A stretch of DNA of 64,000 nt from Gammaproteobacteria bacterium (GTDB taxonomy: Bacteria; Pseudomonadota; Gammaproteobacteria; GRL18), in assembly GCA_026196615.1 (NCBI GenBank), contig JAPHSW010000032.1, positions 1 to 64,000 on the forward strand. Reading direction: 5' to 3'. The notes beneath the pieces are model-generated. The model was not told where the DNA came from. It worked only from the letters and a program-made list of their open reading frames with translations, and did no database searches. Position 1 is the stretch's first letter. Each line of letters opens with the position of its first letter. The translations under genes were made by a program, and so were the position numbers. This document shows positions 19,720 through 48,523 of this stretch, one piece after another.

Positions 19720-21726
19720 TTATTGGACAGGTATTTTTTCCTGTATTGTTTTCATAAGGCCAGCACAATCCAATCCATAATCATGGTGGACTTGTTGTTG
19801 AGTGGCGTGCTCAGGATAAGTATCAGGTAGCCCTAGATTGATAATTGGACAGGTAGAAATTTGACTGGCCAAACTTTCATTGACTGCACTTCCTGCACCA
19901 CCAATAATGGTATTATCCTCTAAGGTTAACAGCAAATGACATGTTTTAACCTGTTCGAAGATAAGTGTTGAATCAAGTGGTTTAATAAAACGCATATTGA
20001 TCACTTTAATGTGGTAACTGTTTTTTAACTTTTCTGCAGCCATTAATGCTTCATTGAGCAGACTTCCAAAACTTAAGATGACAATTATTTTTTGTGAGCT
20101 ACTTTTAATAACCGGAGCATTAACAGAGTCATGAGTAGGAGTTTCTTTATGACTGTCAAAAACGAGTTCTCCTTTGCCTGTTTCAAGCTGGAGAACTTGT
20201 TGTTTATTTATAGCCTGTCCGGCTCCCTTGCCTCGTGGATAACGGACAGCAACGGGAGAATTAAGAGAAAAACCATAGTCCAGCATGTGATAGCATTCAT
20301 TTTCATCTGCTGGTGCCATTATTGTCATATTAGGAATACAGCGCATAAAACTTAAATCAAAGCTACCTGAATGTGTTGCGCCATCACCACCTACAATTCC
20401 ACCCCGATCAATGGCGAATAATACGGATAAATTTTGTAATGCAACATCATGGATGAGTTGATCATAAGCTCTTTGTAAAAATGAAGAGTAGATTGCCACC
20501 ACAGGTTTTAAACCTTCACAGGCCATACCAGCCGCTAGTGTAACGCTGTGCTGTTCAGCAATACCCACATCATAATATCGGTCAGAAAATTGTTCTGAAA
20601 AAGCAACTAATCCAGAGCCTTCACGCATTGCGGGTGTAATACCGATCAATTGTTCATTTTTATGTGCAGCATCAACAATCCATTCACTGAATACTTGTGT
20701 ATAAGTCAAACCAACGGGGGGGGTAGAAATTGCGGCGACTTCTTCTGTTTGTTGATTGTCTTGTCCTTGAGCTATCTGTTCTTGTGTGGTTTGAGATTCT
20801 TTATAGTTTTTATAAAATCCTGGGGCGGCTGCATGGTATTGAGTCGGAGCTTGTTCAGCAGGTTCAAAGCCCTTTCCTTTACGTGTGACAACATGCAAAA
20901 ACTGGGGGCCAGATAATTGTTTGATATTTTTTAGAGTTGTTAAAAGTGTAGGGAGATCATGACCATCAACGGGGCCAATATAATTAAAGCCCAGCTCTTC
21001 AAACAAAGTACCAGGAATCACCATTCCTTTCATATGCTCTTCGGCACGACAGGCAAGCTCCCAAACTGAGGGCATAGAACTGAGTACTTTTTTGGAGTTT
21101 GATTTAACAGTGGAATAAAATTTTCCAGAGAGTACTTTGGCAAAATAATTAGATAATCCACCTACATTGGGTGATATTGACATGTCGTTGTCGTTTAGAA
21201 TGACCAATAAATCAGCATCGAGATCACCCGCATGATTTAAAGCTTCAAATGCCATTCCTGCAGTCATGGCGCCATCACCAATAACGGCAATAGATTTTTG
21301 CTTTAAGCCGTTTTTGTTTGCGGCAATTGCCATGCCTAAAGCGGCACTGATGGATGTGCTGGAATGACCAACACCAAAGGCATCATAGGGACTTTCTGAA
21401 CGTTTTGGGAAACCTGAAAGACCATCTTTTATACGAATTGAATCCAGTTGCTGTGCACGACCGGTGAGTATTTTATGTGGGTAAGCCTGGTGACCAACAT
21501 CCCAGATTATTTTATCGTCAGGGGTATCAAATATTCGATGTAAGGCAATTGTTAATTCAACTGCACCTAAATTGGAGGACAAGTGCCCACCCACTTTATC
21601 TAAAGTTTGTAATAAAAATGAACGAAGTTCTGTTGCTAATAATATTAATTGATCTTTATCCAGACATTTCAAATCTTCAGGAGAATTGATGGTCGATAAT
21701 AATGGATAACGCAAAAGATCTGTCAT
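19720..21726 (-). CDS. dxs: 1-deoxy-D-xylulose-5-phosphate synthase
   Basis: First enzyme of the MEP pathway, condensing pyruvate and glyceraldehyde-3-phosphate with thiamine diphosphate. 668 residues, somewhat longer than the E. coli protein (620). The TPP-binding motif GDGAMTAGMAFEALNHAG followed by ILNDNDMSIS is intact, as are DVGIAEQHSVTLAAGMA and DRGGIVGGDGATHSGSFDL of the pyrimidine domain. The extra length is mainly a Gln-rich insert near residues 305-340 between the TPP and pyrimidine domains and a second insert near residue 540. The first insert is encoded next to a C8 homopolymer (G8 at 20716-20723 on the plus strand), a possible slippage site. It lies downstream of xseB-ispA in the same direction. 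Confidence 0.96.
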   Translation of the reverse strand: MTDLLRYPLLSTINSPEDLKCLDKDQLILLATELRSFLLQTLDKVGGHLSSNLGAVELTIALHRIFDTPDDKIIWDVGHQAYPHKILTGRAQQLDSIRIKDGLSGFPKRSESPYDAFGVGHSSTSISAALGMAIAANKNGLKQKSIAVIGDGAMTAGMAFEALNHAGDLDADLLVILNDNDMSISPNVGGLSNYFAKVLSGKFYSTVKSNSKKVLSSMPSVWELACRAEEHMKGMVIPGTLFEELGFNYIGPVDGHDLPTLLTTLKNIKQLSGPQFLHVVTRKGKGFEPAEQAPTQYHAAAPGFYKNYKESQTTQEQIAQGQDNQQTEEVAAISTPPVGLTYTQVFSEWIVDAAHKNEQLIGITPAMREGSGLVAFSEQFSDRYYDVGIAEQHSVTLAAGMACEGLKPVVAIYSSFLQRAYDQLIHDVALQNLSVLFAIDRGGIVGGDGATHSGSFDLSFMRCIPNMTIMAPADENECYHMLDYGFSLNSPVAVRYPRGKGAGQAINKQQVLQLETGKGELVFDSHKETPTHDSVNAPVIKSSSQKIIVILSFGSLLNEALMAAEKLKNSYHIKVINMRFIKPLDSTLIFEQVKTCHLLLTLEDNTIIGGAGSAVNESLASQISTCPIINLGLPDTYPEHATQQQVHHDYGLDCAGLMKTIQEKIPVQ

Positions 21727-45096: not shown

Positions 45097-45747
45097 TTAA
45101 AGATAATAAGCCCCTTTGGTCATTACTTTAGACATCAAATTCATTGCCAGTTTTACTGCTGTAGGCAAATTGGCTCCTCCAGCTTCTTCCGCAATAACGG
45201 CATGATGTAACTCATCCTCTTTCATCTGTTCAAGAATTGCCCGGCTTTTTTTGTCCTCTGGGGATATTTGAGAGAGATGGCTGTCCAGATGACGAACCAC
45301 CTGATGTTCTGTTTCTGAAACAAAACCTAAACTCCATTTATCGCCGGCCTTACCTGCAATTGCACCAATAGTCAGAGAGCCCATATACCAGAAAGGGCTT
45401 AAATAGCTGACGTGAGTCCCCAATTCCTTACAGCGATTTTCACACCAATCAAGGTGATCATTCTCTTCTTGTGCTGCACGCATCATTTGCTGACGAACGT
45501 CAGGTAATTTAGCAGTAAGAGCTTGTCCTTGATAAAGCCCTTGAGCTGAAACTTCACCTGCATGGTTAATTCGCATGAGACGGCCAGAGAGCTTTTTATC
45601 AGTATCACTCAACTCTGTCTCATGTTGATTCCTGGCAGGGTTTTCTCTTTCTGTTATTTCTGGAGCTCCCAATAATGTACGTACGCCAGTATCAATATTG
45701 AAAAGGAAATGATCTAGCGGTGAGTATTGACGTGGTTGTGATGACAT
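45097..45747 (-). CDS. coq7: 2-polyprenyl-3-methyl-6-methoxy-1,4-benzoquinone monooxygenase (Coq7)
   Basis: A 216-residue di-iron hydroxylase acting late in ubiquinone synthesis. The iron ligands sit in RINHAGEVSAQGLYQGQ, EENDHLDWCENR, ETEHQVVRHLDSHL and KEDELHHAVIAEEAG-type motifs (the last reads MKEDELHHAVIAEEAGG). Its presence indicates aerobic respiration with ubiquinone. It lies 11 bases downstream of the GlcF-like gene in the same direction, so the pair is probably one operon. Confidence 0.94.
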   Translation of the reverse strand: MSSQPRQYSPLDHFLFNIDTGVRTLLGAPEITERENPARNQHETELSDTDKKLSGRLMRINHAGEVSAQGLYQGQALTAKLPDVRQQMMRAAQEENDHLDWCENRCKELGTHVSYLSPFWYMGSLTIGAIAGKAGDKWSLGFVSETEHQVVRHLDSHLSQISPEDKKSRAILEQMKEDELHHAVIAEEAGGANLPTAVKLAMNLMSKVMTKGAYYL

Positions 45748-47153: not shown

Positions 47154-47286
47154 AAACTATTGGTTAAATTCTGATATTATACCACCCAAATTGAAAACAA
47201 TACCTGTTCTTATAACCATACATTTATTTTAATGTTAGTTGAGTCAGATTTTTTATAAATTCATTGAGGGAGATAACCAGCTAATT

Positions 47287-47601
47287 ATGACATATTATTC
47301 AAAACATTTATTTGTCTGTACTAATGATAGAGATGATGGTGGACCATGTTGCCAACGCTTTAATACCCGAAAAATGCGCAAATATGTAAAAAATAAATGT
47401 AAAGAACTTGGAATTCATGGAGAAGGGCAGGTTCGTATCAATAGTGGTGGTTGTATGGGGCGTTGTAATGAAGGTCCTGTTATTGTCATATATCCTGAAG
47501 CAATCTGGTACACATTTGTAGATGAAGAGGATTTGGATGAAATTATCGAACAGCACCTATTAAAAGGGAATGTTGTTAAGCGGCTACAATTGCCTGGCTG
47601 A
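47287..47601 (+). CDS. Thioredoxin-like [2Fe-2S] ferredoxin
   Basis: A 104-residue protein of the thioredoxin-fold [2Fe-2S] ferredoxin family. The cluster cysteines are in HLFVCTNDRDDGGPCC and INSGGCMGRCNEGPVIVIYP; a C-terminal VDEEDLDEIIEQHL helix is typical. I start at ATG 47287, which gives the usual MTYYxKHLFVC family beginning; the frame runs back to a TTG at 47239. GAGGGAG lies about 14 bases upstream, rather far. It diverges from the GlcF-like/coq7 pair, another link to redox chemistry. Confidence 0.88.
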   Translation: MTYYSKHLFVCTNDRDDGGPCCQRFNTRKMRKYVKNKCKELGIHGEGQVRINSGGCMGRCNEGPVIVIYPEAIWYTFVDEEDLDEIIEQHLLKGNVVKRLQLPG

Positions 47602-47727
47602 ACTTCTGGCTGGGCTAAAGACTAATAATTAATGGTACACAGTGACCTTTATTTTATTGGGATATGTGTAAAGTCGGATAAAACTGATAAACAGTTAACA
47701 CTTTCATGGCTAATTTTGAAAATACTA
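47602..47727. other. Gap between the ferredoxin gene and the small RNA promoter
   Basis: About 126 bases without a gene. I see no clear terminator for the ferredoxin gene here. Confidence 0.4.
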
Positions 47728-47756
47728 TTGACAACGTCAGAGTATATCAGTATATT
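47728..47756 (+). promoter_or_regulatory. Near-consensus sigma-70 promoter of the candidate small RNA
   Basis: TTGACA (47728-47733), a 17-base spacer and TATATT (47751-47756). This is the best -35/-10 pair I found in the window, and there is no open reading frame immediately downstream; the transcript would begin near 47762-47764. Confidence 0.72.
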
Positions 47757-47761
47757 ATTAT

Positions 47762-47877
47762 GCAACTGATTACTGTTCACATGAAGTGACAGCAGTTACT
47801 TTATACCTCCATCCTCCTTTGGTGGTTTTTATAATGGCGTAACTCCCCCCCCCCTTGGTTGCGCCTTATTTTTTATT
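47762..47877 (+). ncRNA. Candidate small RNA with C10 terminator loop
   Basis: About 115 bases bounded by a near-consensus promoter and a terminator, without a coding frame. Its 5' hairpin pairs AACTG/CAGTT (47764-47768 with 47793-47797) and CTGTTCAC/GTGACAG (47773-47780 with 47786-47792). A C- and U-rich stretch follows, with CCUCC motifs near 47807 and 47815 that could pair with ribosome-binding sites, then a small hairpin ending in GGTGG and a T-run. The last hairpin is the terminator: GGCGTAAC (47836-47843) with GTTGCGCC (47858-47865), loop containing ten consecutive C (47845-47854), followed by TTATTTTTTATT. This layout resembles trans-acting regulators that expose a C-rich loop to G-rich or Shine-Dalgarno targets. 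I do not recognise it as a known RNA family; expression is inferred. Confidence 0.6.
47836..47877 (+). terminator. Rho-independent terminator with poly-C loop
   Basis: Eight-pair stem (one G-U pair) of GGCGTAAC and GTTGCGCC, a 14-base loop with C10, and a T-rich tail. It ends the candidate small RNA and precedes the rplM promoter. Confidence 0.78.
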
Positions 47878-47954
47878 CCTTTCATTAAATTTATAATCTG
47901 CATGCGTATTGTCTTATTTATCAAAAAGTAATTAATTTATTTTTTTAAAAATGC

Positions 47955-47990
47955 TTTTTTAATTAAAAAAAGTCATGTATAATCTCGGGC
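47955..47990 (+). promoter_or_regulatory. rplM-rpsI promoter with GC-rich discriminator
   Basis: TATAAT at 47978-47983 follows an A/T-rich upstream tract and is followed by CTCGGGC, a GC-rich discriminator of the kind that makes ribosomal promoters sensitive to ppGpp. The -35 at 17-base spacing (TTTTTT) is weak, and the A/T-rich upstream DNA may act as an UP element. It lies 112 bases before rplM. Confidence 0.6.
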
Positions 47991-48094
47991 TCTTTGAAAC
48001 ACAAGTACTTTATTATTTATAAGTTTCTTATTAGCTTAAGTTAATTAGATGCTTGTGTTGAATAAAACAAATTTAATATACAGGCGCTGTAAAA

Positions 48095-48523
48095 ATGAAG
48101 ACATATAGTGCGAAGCCAGAAACTGTTGAACGTGACTGGTATATCGTTGATGCTGAAAACAAAACCCTGGGTCGTCTGTCAACAGAAATTGCTAGACGTC
48201 TTCGTGGTAAACATAAACCAGAATACACTCCACACGTTGACACAGGTGATTACATAGTTGTAATTAATGCTGAAAAAGTTCACGTTACTGGAAACAAAAG
48301 AACTGATAAGATGTATCATCATCATACTGGTTTTGTTGGTAATCTAAAAAGTATCAGTTTCGACAAATTACTTGAAAGAGCACCAGAACGTATTATTGAA
48401 AATGCTGTTAAAGGTATGTTGCCTAAAAACCCTTTAGGTCGTGCTATGTACAGAAAAATGAAAGTCTATGCAGGTAGTGAGCATCCACATACAGCTCAGC
48501 AACCTAAGACTCTAGAAGTTTAA
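48095..48523 (+). CDS. rplM: 50S ribosomal protein L13
   Basis: A 142-residue ribosomal protein, the same length as in E. coli. Family sequence is clear: [55 protein letters not shown] and [20 protein letters not shown]. It assembles early on 23S rRNA. Its sequence is followed after 73 bases by rpsI, the universal rplM-rpsI pair. Codons here are biased towards those of highly expressed genes. Confidence 0.98.

Follow-up and report, generated by a model that had tools for sequence, protein, structure and literature searches.

The Rfam family RF02278, "Betaproteobacteria toxic small RNA," is represented in Burkholderia cenocepacia by the small RNA (sRNA) NcS27, or bdhR1, a "double-hairpin RNA" (PMC5688073, PMC10987360). 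Overexpression of NcS27 slows B. cenocepacia growth, which is accelerated by antisense directed against the CU-rich end of NcS27 (PMC5688073). In Bordetella pertussis, the sRNA S17 is Hfq enhanced and cut by RNase E, and it represses BP2158 by pairing at the 5' untranslated region through its single-stranded Sites 1 and 3 (PMC11722255). Across a range of Betaproteobacteria, Sites 1 and 2 of S17 show 100% conservation, and they match sequences at or near the ribosome binding sites (RBSs) of most genes raised in the deletion (PMC11722255). Reports of growth inhibition by overexpression concern Burkholderia members; with S17, the exponential growth of Escherichia coli was unimpaired (PMC11722255).

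The RNA described here lies in a window of 64,000 nucleotides, by which we mean the whole stretch of gammaproteobacterial DNA that was analyzed. Like it, NfeR1/ar14 and the CcsR1-4 "cuckoo" RNAs of Alphaproteobacteria carry an ultra-conserved anti-Shine-Dalgarno (anti-SD) CCUCC in unpaired regions and have a broad set of predicted RBS targets (PMC10746234, PMC10253847). They differ in that their motif is CCUCCUCCC, ar14 has three hairpins, and CcsR is processed from an operon; the window falls below the Rfam cutoffs for ar14 and CcsR, and no shared synteny with them was shown. The Neisseria siblings NmsR and RcoF, compared with NcS27 in PMC5688073, also have CU-rich unpaired stretches complementary to metabolic-gene RBSs, a likeness of described features, and they form a tandem pair. 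A literature search, made mostly without subscription papers, found no description of a gammaproteobacterial homologue beside rplM.

Promoter and predicted transcript between the ferredoxin gene and rplM

The features of the locus are as follows.

45097..45747, minus strand: coq7, about 2 kb upstream of the sRNA, a neighbor common to the betaproteobacterial S17/RF02278 copies
47239..47601, plus strand: (2Fe-2S) ferredoxin gene, conserved upstream neighbor, adjoining the sRNA in many class members
47728..47756, plus strand: sigma-70-type promoter, with −35 TTGACA (47728-47733), a 17-nt spacer, and −10 TATATT (47751-47756)
47762..47874, plus strand: predicted sRNA transcript of about 113 nt, its start placed from the −10 box
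about 47764-47797, plus strand: 5' hairpin AACUG...CAGUU (RNAalifold consensus)
47806-47810 and 47813-47817, plus strand: two CCTCC motifs (CCUCC in the RNA), read from the sequence
47806..47828, plus strand: core CCUCCAUCCUCCUUUGGUGGUUU, forming a small stem with the exposed anti-SD loop UCCUCCUU
47836..47865, plus strand: intrinsic terminator, with an 8-bp stem (47836-47843/47858-47865) and a 14-nt loop (47844-47857)
47845..47854, plus strand: C10 homopolymer in the terminator loop, read from the sequence
47866..47874, plus strand: T-rich tail with T6 at 47869-47874, kept in relatives, a possible Hfq site
48095..48523, plus strand: rplM (ribosomal protein L13), conserved downstream neighbor on the same strand as the sRNA

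The promoter, which a sequence-only reading had proposed as TTGACA-N17-TATATT, is present, agrees with the consensus at 11 of 12 positions, and is the best promoter-like match within the 6-kb region scanned. It is kept in 10 of the 11 aligned relatives together with a wider block, TATATNAGTATATTATTAT, the −35 box being absent only in L011, and a TTGACA-spacer-(T/A)ATATTAG block is seen again in many distant members. Shortly 3' of the −10 box, the sequence CTGATT (47766-47771) recurs at the transcript 5' end in many families; members L016, L114, L125, L128, L132, L136, L137, and L158 bear it. Farther downstream, a TATAAT box at 47978-47983, between the sRNA terminator and rplM, is likely a separate rplM promoter.

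No convincing coding frame covers the locus, as the same reading had held: the only open reading frames (ORFs) are mechanical ones of 45 and 31 amino acids overlapping its ends, and the loops and linkers of the RNA differ in length among relatives, which counts against a coding frame. The sRNA occurs as one copy in its own genome, whereas Burkholderia has three to five.

Structure and conservation of the RNA

The 5' hairpin, the two CCUCC motifs, and the terminator whose 14-base loop holds C10, all claimed in the sequence-only reading, are present at the positions listed above. The window RNA has a fold z-score of −3.66, and 0 of 200 shuffled sequences were as stable; together with the conserved promoter, hairpin, and terminator, these values indicate that the element did not arise by chance. 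Genomes of the same genus and the same family carry it at 85 to 95% identity, and in 14 related species the alignments typically start at or near the −35 box and stop just past the terminator. An alignment of eleven copies keeps the −10 box, the 5' hairpin, the core, and the terminator. Thus, promoter and hairpins proved to be conserved in related species, and compensatory changes, a second check named in advance, were found in the terminator of relatives and at one pair of the 5' hairpin.

That single pair was detected by RNAalifold in L002; reading the alignment by eye, we also saw the inner 5' stem of L014 swapped for a different sequence that still pairs. In most of the distant members, the leaders are unrelated in sequence yet paired. 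In other families of the class, the core alone is alignable, and each copy has its own promoter, leader hairpin, and terminator around it. The terminator stem shows two-sided compensatory change at all 8 pairs, with 97.9% of cells paired over 53 distinct sequences. For both helices, 98.0% of cells are paired in the 53 rows, versus 87.7 ± 0.5% in shuffles and 36 to 63% in slid versions, paired-cell figures that are favored because the alignment was fitted to a covariance model; two-sided changes numbered 65, versus 12.4 in shuffles. Covariation says little on the core helix because that helix barely varies. In L115, the core stem is kept paired in a slightly different manner.

The core itself, about 22 nt long (CCUCCAUCCUCCUUUGGUGGUU), is nearly invariant well outside the window's family and among 50 distinct members, and five other class families carry it at 100% identity across 21 to 23 nt. 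Its loop UCCUCCUU is unpaired both in the minimum free energy structure and in the ensemble. Altogether, conservation and compensatory changes support the earlier picture of a structured small RNA with its own transcription and with C-rich, SD-complementary single-stranded regions, and the locus upstream of rplM is, on this comparative evidence, almost certainly a real trans-acting sRNA gene.

Homology to RF02278, S17, and NcS27

No Rfam model matched anywhere in the window at its gathering threshold, and RF02278, with a gathering score of 50 bits, gave no match at E ≤ 10 in 47600-48110. On gammaproteobacterial copies in general, RF02278 scores mostly 25 to 49 bits, below its cutoff, with a best E of about 1e-8; several copies from other families are found at 25 to 35 bits. 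At E ≤ 1e-3, it matches 82 of 274 class genomes, with 2 above the cutoff. We built a covariance model, R1, from 21 gammaproteobacterial copies, none of them from the window's own family. R1 finds the window locus at 43.3 bits and, reciprocally, members of RF02278 at 37.8 to 45.9 bits (E of about 1e-8). Since some of its weak hits, scoring as high as 35.5 bits, proved to be PrrF, SorX, or suhB, only scores of at least 42 bits were counted; among the matches listed, 114 of 369 sampled class genomes reach this score, and the 159 of 369 obtained at E ≤ 1e-3 were set aside as overly generous. These off-family RNAs, the known sRNAs PrrF, suhB/mmgR, and SorX (L216-L219, L220, and L221), score about 34 to 36 bits with R1, and a common CU-rich element and terminator may be convergent. 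A search of viral contigs for the exact core found none. In some other Gammaproteobacteria (L206, L207, L208, L211, and L123), two or three CCUCC-core RNAs stand in tandem, each with its own terminator-like hairpin.

By its core and terminator and by the reciprocal profile matches, the window sRNA is homologous to RF02278, S17, and NcS27, so that the "new small RNA" of the sequence-only reading is not new in kind. The core is near identical, CTCCTCCACCTCCTCCTTTGGTGG in RF02278 member L214 versus CTCCTCCATCCTCCTTTGGTGG in most Gammaproteobacteria. As in RF02278 and NcS27, there are two hairpins, the second of which is the terminator, and CU-rich unpaired regions complementary to RBSs. The window copy differs in being unmatched by the Rfam model, in having a host outside Betaproteobacteria, in the 5' hairpin that precedes the core, and in a terminator loop expanded to C8-C11. 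With S17 it shares a promoter (sigma-A in S17) with a 17-bp spacer, a location near coq7, a core with Sites 1 and 2, and the terminator loop, which S17 uses as Site 3; S17, however, is 190 nt long and cut to 67 nt by RNase E, its BvgA regulation is specific to Bordetella, and no poly-C has been reported in it (PMC11722255). The window RNA is therefore almost certainly, as far as comparison of sequences can tell, a gammaproteobacterial relative of the S17/NcS27 "toxic sRNA" described so far only from Betaproteobacteria. An RF02278-type sRNA catalogued as betaproteobacterial thus appears to exist in roughly one third of the gammaproteobacterial genomes sampled, its locus, promoter, and structure being conserved, and the Rfam model passes almost none of these copies. 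Such a distribution would rank the family among the more broadly conserved trans-acting sRNAs of Proteobacteria and would explain the content of the ferredoxin-rplM gap in many genomes.

Gene neighborhood

The gammaproteobacterial gene order is coq7-ferredoxin-sRNA-rplM-rpsI. In 22 of the 30 top class matches, rplM follows on the same strand at a distance of 149 to 462 bp, and the ferredoxin gene and coq7 are often found upstream; the sRNA also precedes rplM in Thiothrix caldifontis and "Candidatus Thiodiazotropha taylori." S17 of Bordetella adjoins coq7 (PMC11722255), and every Burkholderiales-like (f107) RF02278 copy examined with its flanks has coq7 within about 0.75 kb, so the coq7 neighborhood is a further likeness to the RF02278 copies read. 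Published gene listings place B. cenocepacia NcS27 between BCAL3348a and BCAL3349 and give BCAL3348 as a ribosomal protein gene (PMC4603805, PMC5688073), a position that would fit an rplM neighborhood. In two loci of the betaproteobacterial type, the flanks were read for 10 kb to either side; coq7 is there but rplM is not, making synteny with this type one-sided. The near-identical core and the shared neighbor make orthology likely, and we regard the window sRNA as probably orthologous to S17, NcS27 (bdhR1), and RF02278. What this analysis shows directly is the gene with its promoter and structure, together with the evidence of its conservation, covariation, synteny, and homology.

Proposed mode of action

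Our preferred explanation, in which we have good confidence, is that the locus encodes an independently transcribed, probably Hfq-assisted, trans-acting sRNA of about 113 nt, a probable orthologue of S17/NcS27/RF02278, whose exposed anti-SD element represses mRNAs via their G-rich RBSs. It is by analogy with S17 and NcS27 that we propose that the RNA depends on Hfq, masks RBSs, and helps to trim metabolism. The exposed UCCUCCUU in its small hairpin, which we take to match the 3' end of 16S rRNA, would mimic the 16S anti-SD, and the upstream CCUCC of the core could also become free. The sRNA would then pair with G-rich RBSs and mask them, repressing groups of mRNAs, probably with the assistance of Hfq. 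The genome contains hfq (99.1 bits); given this gene and an S17/NcS27-type element exposed in the window RNA, we favor the masking of G-rich RBSs as its mechanism. In the window's genus, the C8-C11 loop would most likely serve as a second SD or G-rich docking site tolerant of register changes.

Potential pairing was examined in a 444-kb sample (9% of the genome) containing 338 genes called by a simple gene finder. An RBS match to the core of at least 6 nt was present in 58 of the 338 genes, versus 6 in the coding control, an enrichment that reflects plain SD strength in part and is in part circular, as the gene finder's choice of start codons included an SD term and so favors starts that have an SD.

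The C-rich terminator loop

Apart from the C10 tract, no C or G run in the 4.96-Mb genome exceeds 8, and a run of 8 occurs at nine other places. Across the closest species, the tract ranges from C8 to C11, and it is C6 in the next genus. The terminator loops of 50 distinct members contain 52% C, 28% U, and 8% G, and hence a C-rich loop looks ancestral; the C8-C11 of the window's family, compared with these sequences, looks like an enlargement of it. In several distant members (L104, L017, L125, L140, and L141), the 5' hairpin loop also has C5-C6 runs, as if C-rich loops had emerged more than once in this RNA.

From these comparisons, the poly-C loop may serve for secondary docking or be nearly neutral. 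In the neutral or structural reading, the run expanded by slippage where its length is irrelevant, and the CCUCC core alone is functional. The run does vary from 8 to 11 among close species, termination should be hardly affected by loop length, and the loop is short in some distant members, for example CCCCACUU. Yet the run is never shorter than 8 in the 14 closest genomes, even though such runs are nearly absent from the genome; the C-richness looks selected, given family loops that are 80% pyrimidine and 8% G; and S17 acts on its target BP2158 through the terminator loop (Site 3) in addition to Site 1 (PMC11722255). We therefore consider neutrality rather unlikely, and it would concern the C run only, being compatible with the explanation preferred above for the RNA as a whole. 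Whether a homopolymer loop can act as an sRNA seed is a question for which this poly-C variant is a natural test case.

The target of Helicobacter RepG has in its leader a G tract of variable length, with which RepG pairs. The sequence-only reading had invoked RepG-like pairing with homopolymeric G, and in the full form of this account the C10 loop would be the main seed for homopolymeric G in mRNA leaders, with variation in tract length tuning control. The two RNAs are alike in their C-rich terminator loop (C10 in a 14-nt loop in the window), the C8-C11 run persists throughout the family and has no equal in the genome, and C/U-rich terminator loops extend over the wider family. The targets speak otherwise. 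The nine other G8/C8 places in the genome lie in coding sequence or away from a start codon, none of them at an RBS, so long G tracts are not targets of the poly-C loop. GGGGG preceded ATG at 246 places, versus 142 for the reversed pattern, but few of those examined are real starts: with a spacing of 4 to 10 nt, 2 of 30 sites looked like one. In the 338-gene sample, the RBSs of 7 genes matched poly-C at the 6-nt minimum and none went beyond it, far fewer than matched the core, and the deeply conserved part of the RNA is the CCUCC core and not the C run. The G7 run noted earlier in lspA (119-125) exists, but it sits inside the coding sequence and is an unlikely target. We also noted a G8 run on the plus strand at 20716-20723 that the earlier reading had missed; it is antisense within a long minus-strand ORF, off any RBS. 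Considering that no homopolymeric-G leader target was found among G8 runs genome-wide, that the shorter runs sampled seldom precede real starts, and that no sequence relation to RepG was shown, the comparison is a resemblance and not a demonstrated mechanism, and G-tract targeting as the main function is improbable.

Alternative accounts of the whole RNA

The position of the gene raises the question of whether the RNA acts in cis on rplM, as a leader or attenuator serving autoregulation of a ribosomal protein, and not in trans as an sRNA. Most gammaproteobacterial copies are indeed followed on the same strand by rplM at a distance of 150 to 460 bp, with an intrinsic terminator in between. Against this stand the separate TATAAT box between that terminator and rplM; the existence of copies without a nearby rplM, namely, betaproteobacterial-type, tandem, and second copies; the homologues S17 and NcS27, which act in trans (PMC11722255, PMC5688073); and a conserved part that mimics the anti-SD, with no match to an Rfam L13 leader. 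A cis-acting role is hard to reconcile with these observations, and we think it quite improbable. Membership in an alphaproteobacterial anti-SD family instead of the RF02278 group is highly improbable, as the window matches CcsR1 (RF02791) at 22.8 bits (E of 0.0027) and ar14 (RF02344) at 18.3 bits, weak scores against gathering scores of 65.3 and 58.8, ar14 has a different structure of three hairpins that each carry the motif given above (PMC10746234), and synteny and reciprocal profile matches favor RF02278.

Candidate targets

Returning to the trans-acting sRNA that we favor, we ranked 372 ORF starts in the 444-kb sample by their duplex energy with the core, ignoring accessibility; because the core mimics the anti-SD, such a list is biased by ordinary SD strength. 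hybO ranked first, hybB third, and hybA fourth, and the duplex of hybO with the core reached −23.4 kcal/mol with 11 contiguous pairs. These are three neighboring genes of a hydrogenase-2-type operon (L237:16062-19344, corresponding to C9:56062-59344 of the own genome). The chance of three adjacent genes appearing in the top four is about 2e-4, a rough estimate for an operon that was picked after looking and from 9% of the genome. This ranking suggests the hybO-hybA-hybB operon as a predicted target of the sRNA. As a broader and tentative proposal, which we would not yet expect to hold in all its parts, an ancient anti-SD regulator beside coq7/rplM may predate the split of Beta- and Gammaproteobacteria, with the genus-specific C8-C11 acting as a second, register-free seed, such that two classes of RBS, including those of hybOAB, would be controlled. 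Two relatives that have the hyb operon keep strong pairing at all three genes, with hybO at −23.4 and −18.8 kcal/mol.
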